Source of the DNA: a virus
Virus record (IMG/VR): IMGVR_UViG_3300028025_004063
Location: 1 to 22,258 of that record
Reading direction: 5' to 3' (one strand)
DNA length: 22,258 nt
In this document: in pieces, positions 1 to 21,841 of the stretch
Position numbering within the stretch: the stretch's first letter is position 1
Layout: each line of letters opens with the position of its first letter
Translations under genes and position numbers: made by a program
Notes under the pieces: generated by a model
What the model was told of the DNA's origin: nothing
Seen by the model: the letters and a program-made list of their open reading frames with translations, nothing else
Databases searched by the model: none

Positions 1-147
1 GAAAGCCGGGAAGAAAAAACCCCATTTAAAACGATTCAAAAATTAGGCGCATCACTTAAGCGATTTTCTGAATTGTCGCCAGCCTTGGATGGATTTACAC
101 AAGCCATTAATGACTTTTTCGAATCGGACGAAACCGAGGGAAAGTAG
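1..147 (+). CDS. Tail assembly chaperone, gpG-like (3' end only)
   Basis: The last 48 codons of a gene that starts upstream of the window; frame 1 runs open from base 1 to TAG at 145-147. The visible end is acidic (ESDETEGK). I infer a lambda gpG-like tail assembly chaperone, because the last two sense codons form G_GGA_AAG, the slippery heptamer used by lambda G/T, and because the overlapping -1 frame continues into the next ORF just upstream of the tape measure gene. In that family the short G form and the frameshifted GT form coat the tape measure protein during tail tube assembly. The N-terminal domain is not visible, so the family call rests on context and the frameshift signal. Confidence 0.7.
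   Translation, partial: ESREEKTPFKTIQKLGASLKRFSELSPALDGFTQAINDFFESDETEGK
138..144 (+). other. Programmed -1 ribosomal frameshift site, GGGAAAG
   Basis: Read in the gpG-like frame the heptamer is G_GGA_AAG, directly followed by the TAG stop. Slipping back one base re-pairs GGA to GGG and AAG to AAA. The ribosome then continues GTA GAA CCC into the frame of the next ORF, which is open from base 114 (after TGA at 111-113) through to 488. Heptamer, register and gene position all match the conserved G/GT frameshift of lambda-like tails. I see only a weak GC-rich hairpin possibility downstream (GGCG 156-159 with CGCC 166-169). Confidence 0.85.
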
Positions 148-182
148 AACCCGAGGGCGAAGGCGCGCCGCTTACTTGGAAA

Positions 183-488
183 ATGGTCGAGCGCATCAGT
201 TACGGCGAATTGAATTTGTCGGAGCGTGAGTTTTTGAAATCAACGCCCCGATTCTGGAAACGCAAACTTGAAGGGCTCAGAAGCGCACAGAGACAAGAAT
301 ATAGGAATCAATGGACTATTGCGCGTTGGACGGTCGCGGCAGCCATGACGCCGCACTTAAGATCTCCAATAAGCCCTACAAAATTATTGCGGTTTCCCTG
401 GGAGCGGTCAGAACACGACGATATTGTTGCGACCGTTTCCAAACATAAAGATATATTTGCGAAGCTCACCCCACCCGCAAAAGCATGA
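183..488 (+). CDS. Tail assembly chaperone, T-like extension (made as GT fusion)
   Basis: A 101-residue ORF counted from the first ATG, but its frame is open from base 114. It is probably translated mainly as the C-terminal part of a gpG-gpT fusion after the -1 slip at 138-144; the join would read V-E-P-E-G-E-G-A-P-L-T-W-K before this ATG. It is basic, with a pattern (FLKSTPRFWKRKLEG, then WTIARWTVAAAMTPH) resembling phage tail assembly chaperone C-terminal domains, which recruit the tape measure and tail tube subunits. It ends in ATGA, overlapping the next gene by 4 bp. Independent initiation at 183 cannot be excluded, but no good ribosome site is seen. Confidence 0.7.
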   Translation: MVERISYGELNLSEREFLKSTPRFWKRKLEGLRSAQRQEYRNQWTIARWTVAAAMTPHLRSPISPTKLLRFPWERSEHDDIVATVSKHKDIFAKLTPPAKA

Positions 489-970
489 AAGCAATAATCG
501 CAGCCTATAACATCCTTTCCAATAATTCGGCGTTAACGGCTGTTGTGGGATCAAGAATAAACCCGTTACGATTACCCCAGGGGTCATCGTTTCCCGCCAT
601 TACACTGCATGTAATTAGCAACGTGCCCCACATGAGTAAATCGGGGCCAAGCAAAACGGATTTCGCACGCGTTCAGGTTGACGTATTCGGCACGACATAC
701 CAATCCGCGTACAGGGTGGCCGAATTGGTGCGATCAGCAATGGAGGTTCCAACGCCTGGTATATTTAATGGAGTTACGGTTCAAGTAATTGAATATGACG
801 GCGAAATCGAAATGACCGAGGACCAGGCAGCATTTGCCGGGGTTTATCACGTTTCACAGGATTACATAATTAATTACAATAGAATCGAAAGCGCAACCGG
901 TGACAATTTCATGTTGCTAGAAAGCGGAGATTTCATGTTGTTGGAAAGTGGTAGTAGAATAATTTTATAA
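485..970 (+). CDS. DUF3168-like tail completion protein with C-terminal LLESG repeat
   Basis: 161 residues. Residues 1-133 fit the DUF3168 (gp17-like tail completion / tail terminator) pattern: an N-terminal helix AIIAAYNILSNNSALTAVVG, then PAITLHVIS, then RVQVDVFGTTYQSAYRVAELV, then a C-terminal beta region ending DYIINYNR. Known members cap or complete the tail tube at the head end. The start overlaps the T-like ORF by 4 bp and the tape measure gene follows after 2 bp. Two oddities: it lies between the chaperone and tape measure genes, whereas it usually precedes the major tail protein, and it carries a tandem 8-residue repeat (see 905-952) after the domain. Confidence 0.72.
   Translation: MKAIIAAYNILSNNSALTAVVGSRINPLRLPQGSSFPAITLHVISNVPHMSKSGPSKTDFARVQVDVFGTTYQSAYRVAELVRSAMEVPTPGIFNGVTVQVIEYDGEIEMTEDQAAFAGVYHVSQDYIINYNRIESATGDNFMLLESGDFMLLESGSRIIL
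905..952 (+). repeat. Tandem 24-bp repeat encoding (N/D)FMLLESG twice
   Basis: Bases 905-928 and 929-952 encode NFMLLESG and DFMLLESG in the frame of the DUF3168-like gene, followed by SRIIL and the stop. The copies differ mainly at third positions (CTA/TTG, AGC/AGT, GGA/GGT), so the peptide appears to be maintained rather than freshly duplicated. Confidence 0.85.
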
Positions 971-972
971 TT

Positions 973-2856
973 ATGGCCAAAAGTCAATCGTTAAACATAG
1001 TAATCGGGGCCGACATCAGCAACCTGAAAAAGGGGTTTGATGCGGCGGTGGTAGCCGTTCAGAAGTCGGGCAAAATGCTCACAGAGGACGCAGGAAAAAG
1101 CGTTGCTAGCATTCAGGCACAGTTTGACAAATTGGCCACGGGCAAATTGACGGGTCGAACCGTTCAGCAGCTTACAAATTTAGCAATGGAAGTTCGCGCC
1201 CTAGGTCCAGAGTTTGCAACTACGGCCAACTCAATGATCAAAGAGGCGGGTAAAATAAAGGACAGCATCGGCGACACACGCGCCGAGGTTTCGTATTTTG
1301 CAAGCGATACGCGCCGACTGGATGCAGTTTTGGGCGGTATTCAAGGAGTTGCCGGGGCATTTGGAGCAGTTGAAGGGGCAGCGGCTGCACTAGGTATTCA
1401 AAACGAGGACCTGCAGCAAACCATGGTGAAATTGCAGGGAATTATGGCTCTAGTAAACGGGTTGCAGGCAGTACAAAACGCATTGCAATCCGAAAGCGCA
1501 GTAATGATTGGAATACAAACGGCAGCGACCAAGGTTCAGACGTTTGTGATGGGACAGGCTACGTTGGCGGCTCGGGCATACTCGGCCGCGTTGTTAGCAA
1601 CAGGCGCGGGTGCCGTATTGGTCGCGATTGGCTTGGCGGTTACGTTATTCAAAAACATGTCGAGCGAAATCGACAAAGCAAAAGCCCGCCTCGAGTCGTT
1701 TCAAAAAGCGCAGGAACGATCGCTCACACTTGGACAGCGACAAATAAAAGAAGAAGAACGCCGCGCGCAGTTGGCGATAAGTCAAGCCCAGGCACAAGGC
1801 AAAAGTGAGGCCGAAATATTTAAGATAAAACAGGATAGTTTGGACCGCCAAAAGGCCATGTACACAAAGTACGGCAAAGAGGCGATGGATGAACTACACA
1901 AACAACGCCGCGTGGAGTTGTATTTGGCAACGGGCAACGCTTCAAAAATTGCCGAAATACGTATAAAATACGAGCAACTCGAAAACGATTTGCGCTACTC
2001 AATCAATAATGAGTACAAGGACAAAGTGGTTGCGCTCGAGGTTGAGAAAAACGGCGAAATTGCAAATCAGAGACAGGCGGATTTTAAGGATTTTCAAGTT
2101 AAACAAGCCGAAAAATTAAAGGCAGCCCAAAAAGCCGCCAACGATTTGAAGGCCACCGAAATCGCATCATCAGCAAGCGGAACGAGGCAAGGTATCAAGG
2201 CAGTCGAGCCAGCGCCGGTTAAAATACCCGACCCCAAGCCAATCGAGCACGCGTATACGCAAATTGATTACGCAGCGCAAAGGGCGGCAGCAAATCAAGA
2301 AGCATACGAGGAACGTTTTGCCAAATCGGCCGAGGGGATTAACGCGGCATTTAATAGTTTGACGGCCCAGGGGCTAGAGGCGTTTGGTGAGTTAATTGGC
2401 GGCGTTTTAACGGGCCAAATTGATAGTTTTCAAACGTTTGGTAAAAAATTACTAGGCGCCGTGGCGGCCTTTATGAAATCGTTCGGTCAAGCATTGATAG
2501 CAACCGCAACGGCATCGAAGGCGTTCAAAGAGTTGTTAATTAAACAACCGGTTGCGGCCATCGCAGCGGGTGTCGCATTGGTGGCAGGTTCGGCCGTAAT
2601 CACCGGCATGTTAAACAAAGGCCCCAACGTCACCGCATTCGCCGACGGTGGTATCGTATCTGGCCCAACGCTCGGTTTGATGGGAGAATACCCAGGGGCA
2701 TCAACCAACCCCGAGGTTATCGCGCCATTGGACAAATTGAAAGCATTAATGAAACCAAGCGATTCAGGGTCGGGTTACATCGCATCAACCATGGTGAGCG
2801 GGCGAGATTTGGCAATTGTTTTGAATCGATATAATAAAGATAACCAACGTGGCTAG
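973..2856 (+). CDS. Tail length tape measure protein
   Basis: 627 residues, short for a tape measure protein. At the roughly 0.15 nm per residue seen in siphoviruses this implies a tail near 95 nm. It begins with a mixed alpha region, then an Ala-rich hydrophobic stretch near residues 197-226 (ATGAGAVLVAIGLAVTLF), a long charged coiled-coil region (about 230-400, rich in K, E, Q and A), a second hydrophobic region near 485-545, and a C-terminal FADGGIVSGPTLGLMGEYPG segment typical of these proteins. It sits directly after the chaperone and completion genes and overlaps the next gene by 8 bp. It measures tail length and usually enters the host envelope with the DNA. No peptidase or lysozyme domain is recognised. 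Confidence 0.88.
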   Translation: MAKSQSLNIVIGADISNLKKGFDAAVVAVQKSGKMLTEDAGKSVASIQAQFDKLATGKLTGRTVQQLTNLAMEVRALGPEFATTANSMIKEAGKIKDSIGDTRAEVSYFASDTRRLDAVLGGIQGVAGAFGAVEGAAAALGIQNEDLQQTMVKLQGIMALVNGLQAVQNALQSESAVMIGIQTAATKVQTFVMGQATLAARAYSAALLATGAGAVLVAIGLAVTLFKNMSSEIDKAKARLESFQKAQERSLTLGQRQIKEEERRAQLAISQAQAQGKSEAEIFKIKQDSLDRQKAMYTKYGKEAMDELHKQRRVELYLATGNASKIAEIRIKYEQLENDLRYSINNEYKDKVVALEVEKNGEIANQRQADFKDFQVKQAEKLKAAQKAANDLKATEIASSASGTRQGIKAVEPAPVKIPDPKPIEHAYTQIDYAAQRAAANQEAYEERFAKSAEGINAAFNSLTAQGLEAFGELIGGVLTGQIDSFQTFGKKLLGAVAAFMKSFGQALIATATASKAFKELLIKQPVAAIAAGVALVAGSAVITGMLNKGPNVTAFADGGIVSGPTLGLMGEYPGASTNPEVIAPLDKLKALMKPSDSGSGYIASTMVSGRDLAIVLNRYNKDNQRG

Positions 2857-9985: not shown

Positions 9986-10471
9986 TTATTCGGCGTGAAT
10001 CAACGCCTCATTTTCGTCTGATAGGACGTATCGCCCGCGTATTGTTTCAATCGTTACCGTGCCGGCCTTTATGGCTTGTTTGGCCTCCTCCCATTTCGGG
10101 TGCTCGGGAGTGAGGCTCGTTTTGGCCTTTTCGGGTGGCTTGGGGGCTTGCAAACGAACGCGCAACGCTATGATGGTTTCGCCGAATGCCTTAACCGGGG
10201 TCGCGTAGAGTTGAATCCATTTGCCCGCCCAATCCTCGATATACGGAGACCCGAGAGCCTTCTCGATGGTTTTCTGATTGGTGGCGTTAAGAATAAACGG
10301 TTTGTGGCCGATTAGGTGGGCGATGTTGGCCTCATCCATTTTGCCGTCAATACCTTTGAAGGTTTCGTGCGTTACCTTCTCGATTCGAACGATTAGATCC
10401 TCCCCAGGGTTAAGCGCATAGGCCCCGATAAAGTCAGGATTCGTTAATTTTTTCCAGTGTGTTTTTTGCAT
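9986..10471 (-). CDS. Conserved phage protein beside the exonuclease
   Basis: 161 residues. The core (NPDFIGAYALNPGEDLIVRI, then KPFILNATNQKTIEKALGS, then YIEDWAGKWIQLYATPVKAF, then GETIIALRVRLQAP) is a conserved, mainly beta pattern that I recall in many phages next to recombination and replication genes. The C-terminal ~45 residues are a charged helical tail. I do not know a proven function. The position after the RecE-like nuclease, where an annealing or ssDNA-binding protein would be expected, makes DNA binding a reasonable guess (inference). It overlaps the upstream small gene by 38 bp. Confidence 0.75.
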   Translation of the reverse strand: MQKTHWKKLTNPDFIGAYALNPGEDLIVRIEKVTHETFKGIDGKMDEANIAHLIGHKPFILNATNQKTIEKALGSPYIEDWAGKWIQLYATPVKAFGETIIALRVRLQAPKPPEKAKTSLTPEHPKWEEAKQAIKAGTVTIETIRGRYVLSDENEALIHAE

Positions 10472-10631
10472 GGTGTTTCTCTATTAGTTTTTTTAGTTGG
10501 TTGTAGGTTACGTCGTATCGGGATTTATTGATTTCGACAAATCCGTTTTCAATTTCTTTGACGTGCGGGATGTGATATACGTTAAACAGCTCGCGTTTGC
10601 CCGTTTTTATGTTGTTCAATTCGATGTACAT
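10434..10631 (-). CDS. Small hypothetical in recombination operon
   Basis: 65 residues from the ATG at 10631, which lies 2 bp after the nuclease stop codon. An upstream in-frame start at 10703 would add 24 residues inside the nuclease gene and is less likely. The sequence (MYIELNNIKTGKRELFNVYH, then FVEINKSRYDVTYNQLKKLI) suggests a small beta-alpha domain with a basic helical end. It resembles short proteins in phage recombination clusters but no function is known. Confidence 0.6.
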   Translation of the reverse strand: MYIELNNIKTGKRELFNVYHIPHVKEIENGFVEINKSRYDVTYNQLKKLIEKHHAKNTLEKINES

Positions 10632-10633
10632 GG

Positions 10634-11437
10634 CTACGGCAGAATTAACGTTTTGACCTCGGTGGATTCTGTCAAGCCGTGCCAAATACCTGATTCTTTG
10701 CAACGTTTATATGTTTGCAGGTCCGCGCGGTATAATTCGGTCCCACGTTCACGGTCGTATTCCGATAGTTCGTACAGCTCGTTGAGGTACGGCGCGGTTT
10801 TCTCAACCGCCCAGAATATGAAACGAGGCGTTACCCCGAAGTTTTGGCGGTAGATCTCCGAGTAAAGCGCGTCCTGTACATGGTATCGGTAATTGATGCA
10901 GGAATAGGCGAATTTGCGCTCACTGGCATCGGTTGTGGTTTTCGCATCGATGATGGTGTGCGCTGATTCAACGTGACAGTCCAGTCGGCATTTAACCGGT
11001 ACGCCGTCAATTTCGCCGTACAATATTTGTTCGGCTTGGTAGCCCGGTTCGATTAACCGCATGTAATCAGGGTTATTTTGGGCGGCTTGGTGGATGCCTT
11101 GAACCGTTGCGAGTAGGTCGGCATCGATTTCGAGTTTGCCGGCGTTTTTTTCAAGTTGCTCCGATTTCCATTCTTGATACCTGGATGTGTTGCGCGGACG
11201 GGCTCCACCAATTTCGGCAACGATTTCCGCATCGTCAAACACAAAATAGTGATCGCCCATTGTATGCTGTTCGAATAGGTAGCGGTGTGCGGCCGAACCT
11301 TCAAACATGGCCTTAGTTTCTTTGCGTGGGTTCCCGTCAAGATATTGGTATTTGAACGATGCGGGGGCCTGACTGATCACATCCAGTTTAGATTTTGTGA
11401 GGTGGGTGAGGTCGGCGTGGTATTCCTGAATGGTCAT
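10634..11437 (-). CDS. PD-(D/E)XK exonuclease, RecE / exonuclease VIII-like
   Basis: 267 residues. N-terminal HLTKSKLDVISQAPASFKYQ and MFEGSAAHRYLFEQ match the start of the RecE C-terminal nuclease domain (DUF3799/YqaJ-like). The catalytic region shows GVPVKCRLDCHV followed by IIDAKTTTDASERKFA, giving the D...DxK signature, and then the helix INYRYHVQDALYSEIY. Enzymes of this type resect dsDNA ends 5' to 3' and work with an annealing protein in phage recombination. The start overlaps the coiled-coil gene stop as ATGA. No standard RecT, Erf or Rad52-type partner is recognised nearby. Confidence 0.87.
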   Translation of the reverse strand: MTIQEYHADLTHLTKSKLDVISQAPASFKYQYLDGNPRKETKAMFEGSAAHRYLFEQHTMGDHYFVFDDAEIVAEIGGARPRNTSRYQEWKSEQLEKNAGKLEIDADLLATVQGIHQAAQNNPDYMRLIEPGYQAEQILYGEIDGVPVKCRLDCHVESAHTIIDAKTTTDASERKFAYSCINYRYHVQDALYSEIYRQNFGVTPRFIFWAVEKTAPYLNELYELSEYDRERGTELYRADLQTYKRCKESGIWHGLTESTEVKTLILP

Positions 11438-12531
11438 AATTTATCCGCCTCCTGTTCGATGTACGTTCTAACCTTGCCTAACAACGTTTTTACATTGCGG
11501 GTTATTTTCTCCGCCTCCGGTGTTTCAAGTTGTGGAATATTGATGCCCGCGATTTGGGTTATCAAAAACGCCAGTTTGTCGCGGTCAGGCGCGAGCAATG
11601 CGGCGCGGTCTGATTCGGCTTTCAATCGCTCAGCCTCAGCAGCTGCAGCAGTGGCGGCGCGTGCATCCTCGGCCAATTTCTCGGCGGCTTGTTTCGCCTC
11701 GGCGGCTTCGGCGCGCGCCTTCTCGGCCTCCTTTTCGGCAGCTTCGCGGGCGATGCGTTGTTCATCGGCAATTTTGGCGGCCTCGATTCTAGCCTCCTCG
11801 GCAGCCTTGGCGGCGGCGGCGCGTGCGGCTATTTTGGTTTGTTCTGATTTGACAAACGTGTCAAATTGTTCGTCTGGCATTTCGCGAATATTCATAAGAC
11901 CGCCGTCAATATCCATGGCAGCCAATGTTTTTAGGCGCGATTTCATGCGATCATCCAATTTGCGCTCCTCGGCGGCTAGTCGGTCCGCTTCAATTCGGTC
12001 GGCTTCGGCCTTTGCAGCCTGGGCGGCTTTGATTTGGTCGATGTAGGCTGTGAACTGATCATCGGACATTTGGCGAATGTTAACAAACACCGTATCGGCC
12101 CCGAGTTCGTCGCACAGGTTTTTTCGTTCCAGGTAAACCGCCTCGACGCGTTTTGCCTCCTCGATTTCGTGCCATTTTTCAATCGCTTCGCATCGTTTCT
12201 CAAGTGGTTTGCTGGAATTGTCGATGATGTTGTACAGGTTGTCGAATAGACGGCCCTCGATGATAATGGCCTCTTTGCCTTGTTTTTTGATGCGCTCGGC
12301 CTCCAAACGATTATCGCGCAGGGCTTTGCGTATGGCCTTGGCCATTTCGCAATCTTCCTTTGATGGATTCTCAGCGGGTAGGATGGAGATTTTGCGCTCC
12401 ACCTCGTCCATGCGTTTGAAATACGGAACAAAAAGTTGCATCATTTGTGCGCCTTTTGTAGGCTCGATGTTTGATTGCTCAACGATTTGAATCAGTTGGC
12501 CGTCGTAGTTTTGTGTGGTTAAATTGCTCAT
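11434..12531 (-). CDS. Coiled-coil protein, first gene of leftward recombination operon
   Basis: 365 residues. An alpha-helical N-terminal domain (~1-130, with FVPYFKRMDEVERKIS and AIRKALRDNRLEAERIKKQG) resembles the DUF1351-like phage coiled-coil proteins that accompany RecE/RecT modules. Two copies of a motif, NIRQMSDDQFTAYI and NIREMPDEQFDTFV, are each followed by Ala/Glu/Lys-rich coiled coil. A third coiled-coil stretch (EAEKARAEAAEAKQAAEKLA) precedes a short globular end. The ATG lies 8 bases after an exact TAnnTTTG box on the minus strand (12547-12540), so this gene heads the operon. A scaffold role for the nuclease complex is possible. Confidence 0.75.
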   Translation of the reverse strand: MSNLTTQNYDGQLIQIVEQSNIEPTKGAQMMQLFVPYFKRMDEVERKISILPAENPSKEDCEMAKAIRKALRDNRLEAERIKKQGKEAIIIEGRLFDNLYNIIDNSSKPLEKRCEAIEKWHEIEEAKRVEAVYLERKNLCDELGADTVFVNIRQMSDDQFTAYIDQIKAAQAAKAEADRIEADRLAAEERKLDDRMKSRLKTLAAMDIDGGLMNIREMPDEQFDTFVKSEQTKIAARAAAAKAAEEARIEAAKIADEQRIAREAAEKEAEKARAEAAEAKQAAEKLAEDARAATAAAAEAERLKAESDRAALLAPDRDKLAFLITQIAGINIPQLETPEAEKITRNVKTLLGKVRTYIEQEADKL

Positions 12532-18981: not shown

Positions 18982-19475
18982 AGCCGTTTAATCTAGAACA
19001 AGCGTTGAAGGGTAAGCCCGTAGTGACGCGGGATGGGCGGAAAATTGAGCGCGTTTGGTTGGATATAGATTTAGACGAATCGTATTCGGTTTACGCTATG
19101 GTCCCTTTGTTATCTTCACCAACGGAAAAAAATCAGCGTACTTTTACGCGTGATGGAATGTACTATAACGACGGAATGAAATCGGGGCACGACCTATTCA
19201 TGGCAGGCCGTTCATGGCCATCAATAACACCGCATCCACGCGCGATACTTTTCGCCACCGCATTCGTCCAGGTCTTGTTGGTTTCGCTCAACACGATACT
19301 ACTCGCCCACAAACAAATCGCGTCATCCATCGCGGTTGCGGGTTTGATTAGCTACGTTTGGACGTTCAACGTGAAGCGGGCCGCGTTTGGTTCGCATTGG
19401 GATAAAATAATTTATTCGCTCGGCGCCGCTTGTGGTTCGGGTGTTGGGATTTATCTTGCGGGGCTGATATTATGA
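18978..19475 (+). CDS. Membrane fusion protein: RDGR domain plus 3-4 membrane spans
   Basis: 165 residues in two parts. Residues 1-70 (FNLEQALKGKPVVTRDGRKI) match a short soluble domain found alone in many phages. Residues ~85-165 are hydrophobic with 3 or 4 spans (AILFATAFVQVLLVSLNTIL; IASSIAVAGLISYVW; IIYSLGAACGSGVGIYLAG) and polar turns (TFNVKRAAFGS). The second part resembles small phage membrane proteins that also occur separately. Role unknown; the gene lies between VRR-NUC and primase in the replication operon. The end overlaps the primase ATG by 4 bp. Confidence 0.65.
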   Translation: MKPFNLEQALKGKPVVTRDGRKIERVWLDIDLDESYSVYAMVPLLSSPTEKNQRTFTRDGMYYNDGMKSGHDLFMAGRSWPSITPHPRAILFATAFVQVLLVSLNTILLAHKQIASSIAVAGLISYVWTFNVKRAAFGSHWDKIIYSLGAACGSGVGIYLAGLIL

Positions 19476-21841
19476 CCGATTACGCCACACTTAAATCGAC
19501 CCACAACATCGTCGACATCGTTTCCCGTCGCGTTCAACTCACCCCGAAAGGATCAGAACTCGTCGGCCTATGTCCGTTTCACAACGATACCAAAAAATCC
19601 CTTCAGGTGAACCAAGCCAAACAAATATTTAAATGTTTCGCGTGCGACCAAGGGGGGGATATGTTCGATTGGTTCAAGGCACTCGGGGCGGATTACCGCG
19701 TTGAACTCGGCATCCAAGAACAACCAAAACGCGACCCATCCGAACGGCCCGTACTCAACGGGAAATGGTACTATCACGACCAAACAGGGCAGGTCATCGC
19801 CGAGGTGCATCGCTTCGATTATTCGGACGGCTCCAAGGACGTCAAACCATTTACAAACGGACGGTATGGGCTGCCAAAAGGTCAACGGACGCTGTACAAC
19901 CTCCCCGGCATAATCCAAGCCGATCACGTTTATATCGTTGAAGGTGAAAAAGCAGCCGAGGCCGCCAAACTTATTAACCCCGCAACAACAACGTGGCTTG
20001 GAGGCGCATCGGCCGTTAATAAATCAGATTGGACACCGTTGCAGGGTAAACGCGTGACCTTGTGGCCAGACAACGACGACCCAGGTCGTAAGGCTATGCT
20101 CCAGGTGGCCGAAATACTTACCGACCTATCCTGTACGCTCGACATGATTGTTTGGCCCGAGGGGACACCGCCCAAACAAGACGCCGCAGACCATCCATAT
20201 ACTATCGAATGGGTCGAACAACACGCTAAACCAATCGAGGCGGATGCGCCGTTCGTTCAACTTGGGTTTGTGAACGAATCAGGGCTAAAACATATTTTCT
20301 ACTCCAAGGGGTCGCGCACCATCATTTCGCTCGCATCATCATCGCTGAGCAAATCAAACCTGCCTGAACTCGCGCCGCTTCGGTATTGGCTCGATAAATA
20401 CCCCACCAAACAAGGGTATAACCACGATCAAGCCGTGGACGACCTAATACAGGCATCCAAAAAAATCGGGATATTTAACCCCAACATCATACGGGGTCGA
20501 GGCGCATGGGTTGACGGTACAAACGTGGTAATCCATAACGGTTCGTCGTTAATTGTGAACGGTCGCGCGTTACCATTGGAACAGCAGTCCTCGCGGTATT
20601 TATACGAATTATCGCCCCCGCTTGGTATGAACGTAGCCAACCCGATGCCCGACGAGGAATCCGAATTAATCGCGGAATTCATATCCGGACTATCGTTTTC
20701 GCGCGAGGTCGACGCCCATCTCCTTGCGGGTTGGTGCGTCGTTGCTCCCGTATGTGGCGCGCTATCATGGCGGCCTCATATATGGCTAACGGGTGCAGCG
20801 GGTACGGGCAAATCGTGGGTGTTTCAAAACGTGGTTAGGTCCATGCTTGGGGCGTGTTCGTTATCCGTTCAAGGTGAAACATCGGAGGCGGGTTTACGTC
20901 AGTCGCTTGGACATGATGCGATACCGGTCGTGTTCGATGAGGCGGAGGGCGAAGATAAACGGAATCAGGATCGTATGCAGGCCGTCATGGCGTTGATGCG
21001 TGCAGCATCGGCCGAGGATGGTGGGGTGATGGCGAAGGGTACGTCATCGGGTACGGCTAAAACGTATCGAATTAGGTCATGTTTCGCCTTCGCATCCATC
21101 GCCGTACAGGTCCACCAACAGTCAGACCGTACACGTGTGACGGTGCTGACATTATCCAGACCAAACACAACCAAGCAGCAATGGGAGGAAAAACGGCGTT
21201 ATTTCACCAAGACGTTTACGCCTGATTACGTTCAACGCTTGCAGGCTCGGACGGTTAAATTACTCCCTACAATCCTAGCCAACACCAAAACGTTTGCGCG
21301 GGTTATTGCCGAGGAACTGGGCGAGCAGCGTTTGGGCGATCAGCTAGCCCCAATGTTTGCCGGTCGTGTGTCACTGATTACATCGGACCTATTAACCGAA
21401 TCAGAGGCGCGTGAGCTATTCCGTGGGTATGAGTTTGAAGATGAACGTTCACTCATGGACACCAAAGACGAAATCGCGTGTTTAAAATACCTTATGGAAC
21501 AGCAGGTTGTTGTACATAATCGAGATGATCGCGCGATGAATGTCACCGTGTCTGAGCTTATTCAAGCGGTTCAAAACGTGGAGGGCGGTGTATCGGTTAC
21601 ATCTATGACTGCAGCAGAGGTGTTGAGCCGATGCGGGTTGAAAATCGAACACGACGTTGTTTTAATATCCAACACCGCACTATGGGTTAAAAACGCGCTG
21701 AAAGATACGCAATGGGCTAAGAACCATAGTAGGATATTAATTCGGATTCCTGGTGCAGCTGCCGCGCCGTCCATGCGATTTGCAGGAGGATTGGTGAGTA
21801 GGGCTGTGCAGATTCCGTTGAATGTTTTATATTTGCAATAG
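19472..21841 (+). CDS. DNA primase-helicase (CHC2 zinc finger, Toprim, P-loop ATPase)
   Basis: 789 residues from ATG 19472, chosen because it overlaps the previous stop (ATGA) and starts directly at the zinc domain; the frame is open 14 codons further up. CHC2 zinc finger: Cys34-x2-His37 and Cys55-x2-Cys58. Toprim core: VEGEKA (Glu157-Glu159) and DNDD (200-203). The ATPase part has Walker A GAAGTGKS (441-448) and Walker B VVFDEAE (Asp489, Glu490), of the DUF927-like/phage primase-helicase type. It makes primers and unwinds DNA at the fork. It is the last gene before the terminator at 21870, and the single largest early gene. Confidence 0.9.
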   Translation: MTDYATLKSTHNIVDIVSRRVQLTPKGSELVGLCPFHNDTKKSLQVNQAKQIFKCFACDQGGDMFDWFKALGADYRVELGIQEQPKRDPSERPVLNGKWYYHDQTGQVIAEVHRFDYSDGSKDVKPFTNGRYGLPKGQRTLYNLPGIIQADHVYIVEGEKAAEAAKLINPATTTWLGGASAVNKSDWTPLQGKRVTLWPDNDDPGRKAMLQVAEILTDLSCTLDMIVWPEGTPPKQDAADHPYTIEWVEQHAKPIEADAPFVQLGFVNESGLKHIFYSKGSRTIISLASSSLSKSNLPELAPLRYWLDKYPTKQGYNHDQAVDDLIQASKKIGIFNPNIIRGRGAWVDGTNVVIHNGSSLIVNGRALPLEQQSSRYLYELSPPLGMNVANPMPDEESELIAEFISGLSFSREVDAHLLAGWCVVAPVCGALSWRPHIWLTGAAGTGKSWVFQNVVRSMLGACSLSVQGETSEAGLRQSLGHDAIPVVFDEAEGEDKRNQDRMQAVMALMRAASAEDGGVMAKGTSSGTAKTYRIRSCFAFASIAVQVHQQSDRTRVTVLTLSRPNTTKQQWEEKRRYFTKTFTPDYVQRLQARTVKLLPTILANTKTFARVIAEELGEQRLGDQLAPMFAGRVSLITSDLLTESEARELFRGYEFEDERSLMDTKDEIACLKYLMEQQVVVHNRDDRAMNVTVSELIQAVQNVEGGVSVTSMTAAEVLSRCGLKIEHDVVLISNTALWVKNALKDTQWAKNHSRILIRIPGAAAAPSMRFAGGLVSRAVQIPLNVLYLQ

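Follow-up and report, generated by a model that had tools for sequence, protein, structure and literature searches.

A predicted -1 ribosomal frameshift on G_GGA_AAG at a tail-assembly chaperone locus of a virus recovered as a metagenomic contig

We find that the beginning of virus record IMGVR_UViG_3300028025_004063 most probably encodes a tail-assembly chaperone in two forms, the longer of which would be produced through a -1 frameshift on the slippery heptamer G_GGA_AAG, and we put the probability of this reading at about 0.94. The window, by which we mean the whole stretch of DNA analysed, is the whole virus record of 22,258 bases, and its first base falls inside the upstream chaperone gene (Table 1).

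In the mechanism that we infer for this locus, most ribosomes would stop at the TAG codon that follows the heptamer and release a short, G-like chaperone, while a minority would slip back by one base on G_GGA_AAG, with the Gly and Lys tRNAs re-pairing with GGG and AAA. The slip may be aided by the stop codon next to the heptamer and by a predicted hairpin that begins 6 nt further on. The shifted ribosomes would then continue in the -1 frame to yield a fusion of about 222 amino acids that carries a T-like domain. By analogy with phage lambda, the short form may coat the tape measure protein and the T domain may recruit the tail tube protein, and both forms of the chaperone would leave before the tail is complete.

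Table 1. Positions of the predicted frameshift site, the two reading frames and the adjacent tail genes in the window.
Feature	Position	Strand	Basis
Tail-assembly chaperone gene (putative), G-like, 3' end (48 codons and TAG)	1..147	+	Open frame; full gene in L002-L014; AlphaFold model
Slippery heptamer G_GGA_AAG	138..144	+	Sequence; in 17-18 of 20 clusters either kept or exchanged for a different slippery heptamer
0-frame TAG of the chaperone	145..147	+	TAA or TAG here in nearly all relatives; missing in L023/L024
-1-frame extension, T-like domain (predicted), 116 aa from the heptamer	138..488	+	Stop codon 486-488; PHROG_16333, 7e-11
Predicted mRNA hairpin, possible frameshift stimulator	151-155/175-179 and 156-159/169-172	+	6 nt after the heptamer; covariation, RNAalifold
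ATG, the sole early start of the extension frame; not conserved	183..185	+	Codons of relatives
Tail terminator / tail completion protein, gp17 family	485..970	+	PF11367, 3.1e-11; PHROG_347 tail terminator, 6.7e-14
Probable tape measure protein	973..2856	+	tblastn to annotated tape measures of Bacteroidota phages

The slippery site and its conservation

An earlier note had singled out GGGAAAG as a lambda-type frameshift site in the correct register and directly before the stop codon, and the sequence bears this out: positions 136-147 read GAG GGA AAG TAG, which places the heptamer in the register X_XXY_YYZ at the end of the 0-frame ORF and in contact with its stop codon. As a string of letters GGGAAAG is not rare, occurring once in the window where chance alone predicts 2.6 occurrences, so that its frequency provides no evidence and the argument rests on its position and its conservation. 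Among the 1,362 other ORFs of at least 80 amino acids in the window and its relatives, an XXXYYYZ heptamer that is in register and abuts the stop codon was present in two, and one of these is the homologous chaperone of phage Silence. The site stands out by the position of its heptamer, not by its frequency.

To collect relatives, we searched with the next gene (485-970), which yielded 13 viral contigs. GGGAAAG was located directly before TAG or TAA in 12 of these, while the remaining contig, L007, contained GGGAAAA before TAA. With further searches the dataset, which includes phage records, grew to 129 distinct sequences, and the extension was located in the -1 frame in 127 of them. The two exceptions were the distant Cellulophaga phage phi39:1 and L001, a copy of the window in which the chaperone is cut short and hence misparsed, and which was for this reason not counted as a heptamer exception. 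No prophage or relative in a host genome was found in the genome contigs.

Grouping of the relatives at 90% identity resulted in 20 clusters. An in-register slippery heptamer was present in every member of 17 clusters (L001 aside) and in part of one more. Most of the 17 clusters contained GGGAAAG, two contained GGGAAAA, three AAAAAAG, and GGGAAAT was observed in L159. The heptamer in L227 is AAAGGGG, and its sister L087 has only GGGGGAG (L087:1009-1015). The -1 extension was retained also in L087/L088, L185 and L190/L191, all of which are without a classical in-register heptamer; the stop codon in L190/L191 is preceded by GGAAAAAGAAAACCCCC. Eight heptamer changes were needed on the tree inferred from the extension protein. 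The letters of the heptamer change while its predicted slipperiness stays. The earlier note had suggested conservation in related phages as a check, and had named relatives with an intact stop region and no slippery site as the observation that would speak against it; most relatives have kept the site, and those without it are confined to the small minority listed above.

Entry into the extension frame

From the heptamer onwards, the -1 frame is open via GTA GAA CCC to the stop codon of the extension, and the junction of the predicted fusion reads ...EGK-VEPEGEGAPLTWK. In L002, which is near-identical to the window, the predicted fusion is 222 amino acids long. The distance from the heptamer to the next gene is 347 nt in 12 relatives and 344 nt in L007. 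The register of the heptamer and the open -1 frame can both be read directly from the sequence, as can their conservation among the relatives.

A different explanation, which we consider very unlikely, is that the locus consists of two separate genes and that the extension is translated alone, through re-initiation or coupled initiation at ATG 183 or at a TTG further on. This ATG, at which a gene caller would place the start of the extension, is present in the window and in its close relatives, PHROG_16333 begins near it, and gene callers have split such pairs in phi39:1, GBK2 and Bacuni_F1, just as the earlier note had anticipated that they would. In most relatives, however, the ATG is replaced by a codon that is not a start codon (ATA, ACC, AAG, AAA or AGT), and at 19 of 71 sites the first 40 codons of the extension contain neither ATG nor GTG nor TTG. 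The segment that precedes ATG 183 is also under purifying selection in the -1 frame, with a pN/pS ratio of 0.53 in the extension frame, which is the lowest of the three frames (0.74 and 1.29 for the others). The absence of a convincing start in the extension, as claimed in the earlier note, is consistent with both the unconserved ATG and the selection upstream of it.

The heptamer itself is kept beyond amino-acid demand, which also argues against two independently translated genes. The fraction of identical codons at unchanged residues was 0.86 in the stretch of twelve codons that starts at the heptamer, as compared to about 0.4-0.7 along the chaperone. GAG GGA AAG was invariant in all 12 sequences compared, and synonymous conservation peaks at the site. 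In L151, the heptamer adjoins a -1-frame TGA on one side and is followed by the 0-frame TAA on the other; with stop codons on both sides, and unless there is an independent start, the switch of frame must occur within those 7 nt. In L023/L024, the adjacent stop codon has been lost and the next one is located 27 nt further on, and GGGAAAG is still kept.

Even less probable is that the frames are joined by transcriptional slippage, not by the ribosome. Some relatives contain runs of A's at which polymerases can slip (AAAAAAG, and poly-A in gut phages), but GGGAAAG and CCCAAAG are not long homopolymers, and the form and phase of the heptamer fit with tandem tRNA slippage (PMC5009743). Least likely of all is that the frame break represents a sequencing error or a decayed gene; one-base errors do occur in metagenomic contigs such as this one, but the same break, register and stop codon are shared by more than 100 distinct sequences from many samples, with both frames under selection, which refutes this explanation.

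Protein halves, neighbouring genes and a predicted downstream hairpin

Under ribosomal frameshifting, the two frames would provide a G-like chaperone and a T-like extension. The full length of the chaperone, as read from the relatives, is 108 amino acids in L002 and 115 in L007, and its N-terminus is M(D/N)HIEIGGVQHPLLFN in most of the 13 relatives. The AlphaFold model of the chaperone, with a pLDDT of 85, was matched by Foldseek to annotated tail assembly chaperones in BFVD with probabilities near 1 and E-values of about 0.007-0.02, and from this model we infer that the upstream gene codes for a tail-assembly chaperone (TAC). Searches with the chaperone half gave nothing significant in Pfam, NCBIfam and PHROGs (PHROG_183 at 0.009), no meaningful Pfam match for the 18 members tested, no match to solved structures by sequence or by fold, and no tblastn match in phage records. 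We also considered kinship of the chaperone half to Silence-type chaperones, which was unsupported (hhalign, 1.9%).

The extension is homologous to the second part of the Silence protein (tblastn E = 4e-5, 30% identity), and hhalign comparisons to the extensions of Silence, GBK2 and phi39:1 gave a probability of 98%. The separately made models of the chaperone and of the extension both matched BFVD entry A0A0K1LMC7, which at 247 amino acids has the same length as the Silence fusion and presumably represents that protein. Phage_TAC_6 (PF09550) matched the first ~40 residues of the extension weakly, with E-values of 0.1 or better in 5 of the 18 members (best 9e-4) and with a best score of 20.1 bits that falls below the curated cut-off of 23.4, and the extension of the window itself had no match to it. 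PHROG_16333, which matches the extension and is listed with unknown function, seems to represent the T-like part of a chaperone made by frameshifting.

The chaperone is located just after the major tail protein gene in the relatives. In L010, the genes are arranged in the order connector, head completion, tail completion/neck, tail tube, chaperone, extension and terminator, and the overall order is tail tube, chaperone, extension, terminator and tape measure. The predicted frameshift site is situated between the tail tube and tape measure genes, with one terminator gene intervening before the tape measure gene, and the terminator gene overlaps the stop codon of the extension by 4 nt. The matches of the probable tape measure protein, among them Parabacteroides phage PDS1 at 1e-9 (tblastn), are found mostly in phages of Bacteroidota, which suggests a host from this phylum.

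In relatives, too, the terminator gene separates the extension from the tape measure gene. Bacuni_F1 and Silence are arranged differently, with the corresponding tail genes ahead of the tail tube gene and the chaperone pair adjoining the tape measure gene. The terminator has a C-terminal tail of 28 residues (884-970) with a repeated FMLLESG motif (DNFMLLESGDFMLLESGSRIIL), which is present in L002 and absent from L009 and L010, in which the protein ends at residue 133. Elsewhere in the window, we observed a large replication protein that carries a CHC2 zinc finger of the DnaG type (19430-21841), for which a start at ATG 19472 (MTDYATLK) fits better and the upstream TTG is unlikely, and a short block of genes on the opposite strand (9986-12531, minus strand) that includes an exonuclease VIII-like gene (PHROG_412, 2e-71).

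To quantify the support for the predicted hairpin, we used 27 sequences of the group to which the window belongs. In this dataset, 93% of the cells were paired and 15 cells were compensatory, such counts being inflated by the relatedness of the sequences. Neither the pairing nor the compensation was reached by any of 500 shuffles, and versions of the hairpin slid along the alignment had at most 10 compensatory cells. When the window's sequence is folded by itself, the hairpin is not the minimum-energy structure (z about +1), a common hairpin in the more distant L007-type group was no better than shuffles, and a comparison to Rfam gave no match. A candidate pseudoknot between 169-172 and 190-193 consists of mostly invariant pairs with no added covariation. 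It is plausible that the hairpin acts as a frameshift stimulator. We give roughly even odds to a two-part frameshift signal in this uncultured phage lineage, which probably infects Bacteroidota. The signal would consist of an interchangeable slippery heptamer and of a covarying hairpin that begins 6 nt after it in the coding sequence of the extension, and the hairpin would be maintained as the letters of the heptamer change.

Comparison with known systems

Frameshifted tail chaperones are an established mechanism, known across long-tailed phages, to which the window adds an unannotated chaperone lineage. Three points are mildly new: heptamers have been exchanged inside a single lineage, a covarying hairpin is predicted, and PHROG_16333 receives a putative function. 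A frameshifted chaperone would also account for the two short hypothetical ORFs that gene callers leave before the tape measure gene. With its varying heptamer in a fixed arrangement, the lineage forms a natural series that may be useful for testing which slippery sites function in hosts that rarely use Shine-Dalgarno signals.

The pair shares with gpG/gpGT of phage lambda the heptamer G_GGA_AAG, its register, the -1 direction, the predicted short and extended forms and the place between the tail tube and tape measure proteins. It differs from lambda in the lengths of its parts (108 and 116 amino acids), in the terminator gene before the tape measure gene and in the predicted covarying hairpin downstream of the site. 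Neither half matches the Pfam families for lambda G and T, in agreement with the divergent protein sequences described in the earlier note. The heptamers G_GGA_AAG, C_CCA_AAG and A_AAA_AAG have been reported to be highly shift-prone in E. coli (PMC5009743), and these three are also the commonest in the family of the window and the family of Silence taken together. Mature lambda virions contain neither gpG nor gpGT (PMC5009743), so that mass spectrometry of virions, one of the checks suggested in the earlier note, is expected to be negative even if the pair is real. In line with such an absence, the counterpart pair in phi39:1 is not among the genes with support from virion MS/MS, by which its neighbours were annotated.

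In Bacillus phage Silence, the joined CDS annotated as "tape measure chaperone" (AKU43354/AKU43353) has a homologous extension in the -1 frame, a slippery heptamer directly before the stop codon and a position next to the major tail and tape measure genes, as observed here. It differs in that the heptamer is CCCAAAG, the host is a Bacillus, no terminator gene intervenes and no sequence similarity is detectable between the chaperone halves. Among phages of Bacteroidota, phi39:1 (gp19/gp20), the Bacteroides phage Bacuni_F1 (00005/00004) and MT835789 resemble the window in the place of the pair before the tape measure gene, the similar extension and the overlapping frames, while they differ in that slippage would occur on runs of A's and in that the two genes are either labelled as hypothetical proteins or lack annotation. 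The frames of the phi39:1 pair (L153:2086-2812) are offset by +1 or -2, not -1, beside a run of A's, and the overlapping pairs of Bacuni_F1 (L234:3411-3821) and the gut phage MT835789 (L235:1862-2125) are located at A-runs in the -1 register.

The interpretation in the earlier note, a lambda-type frameshift that yields a G-GT pair, is supported by the heptamer, its register, the spacing, the unconserved ATG, the selection and the homology to Silence. Judged from these sequence features, the pair is predicted to work like lambda G/GT, and we assign it to this class by its mechanism, not by sequence families.
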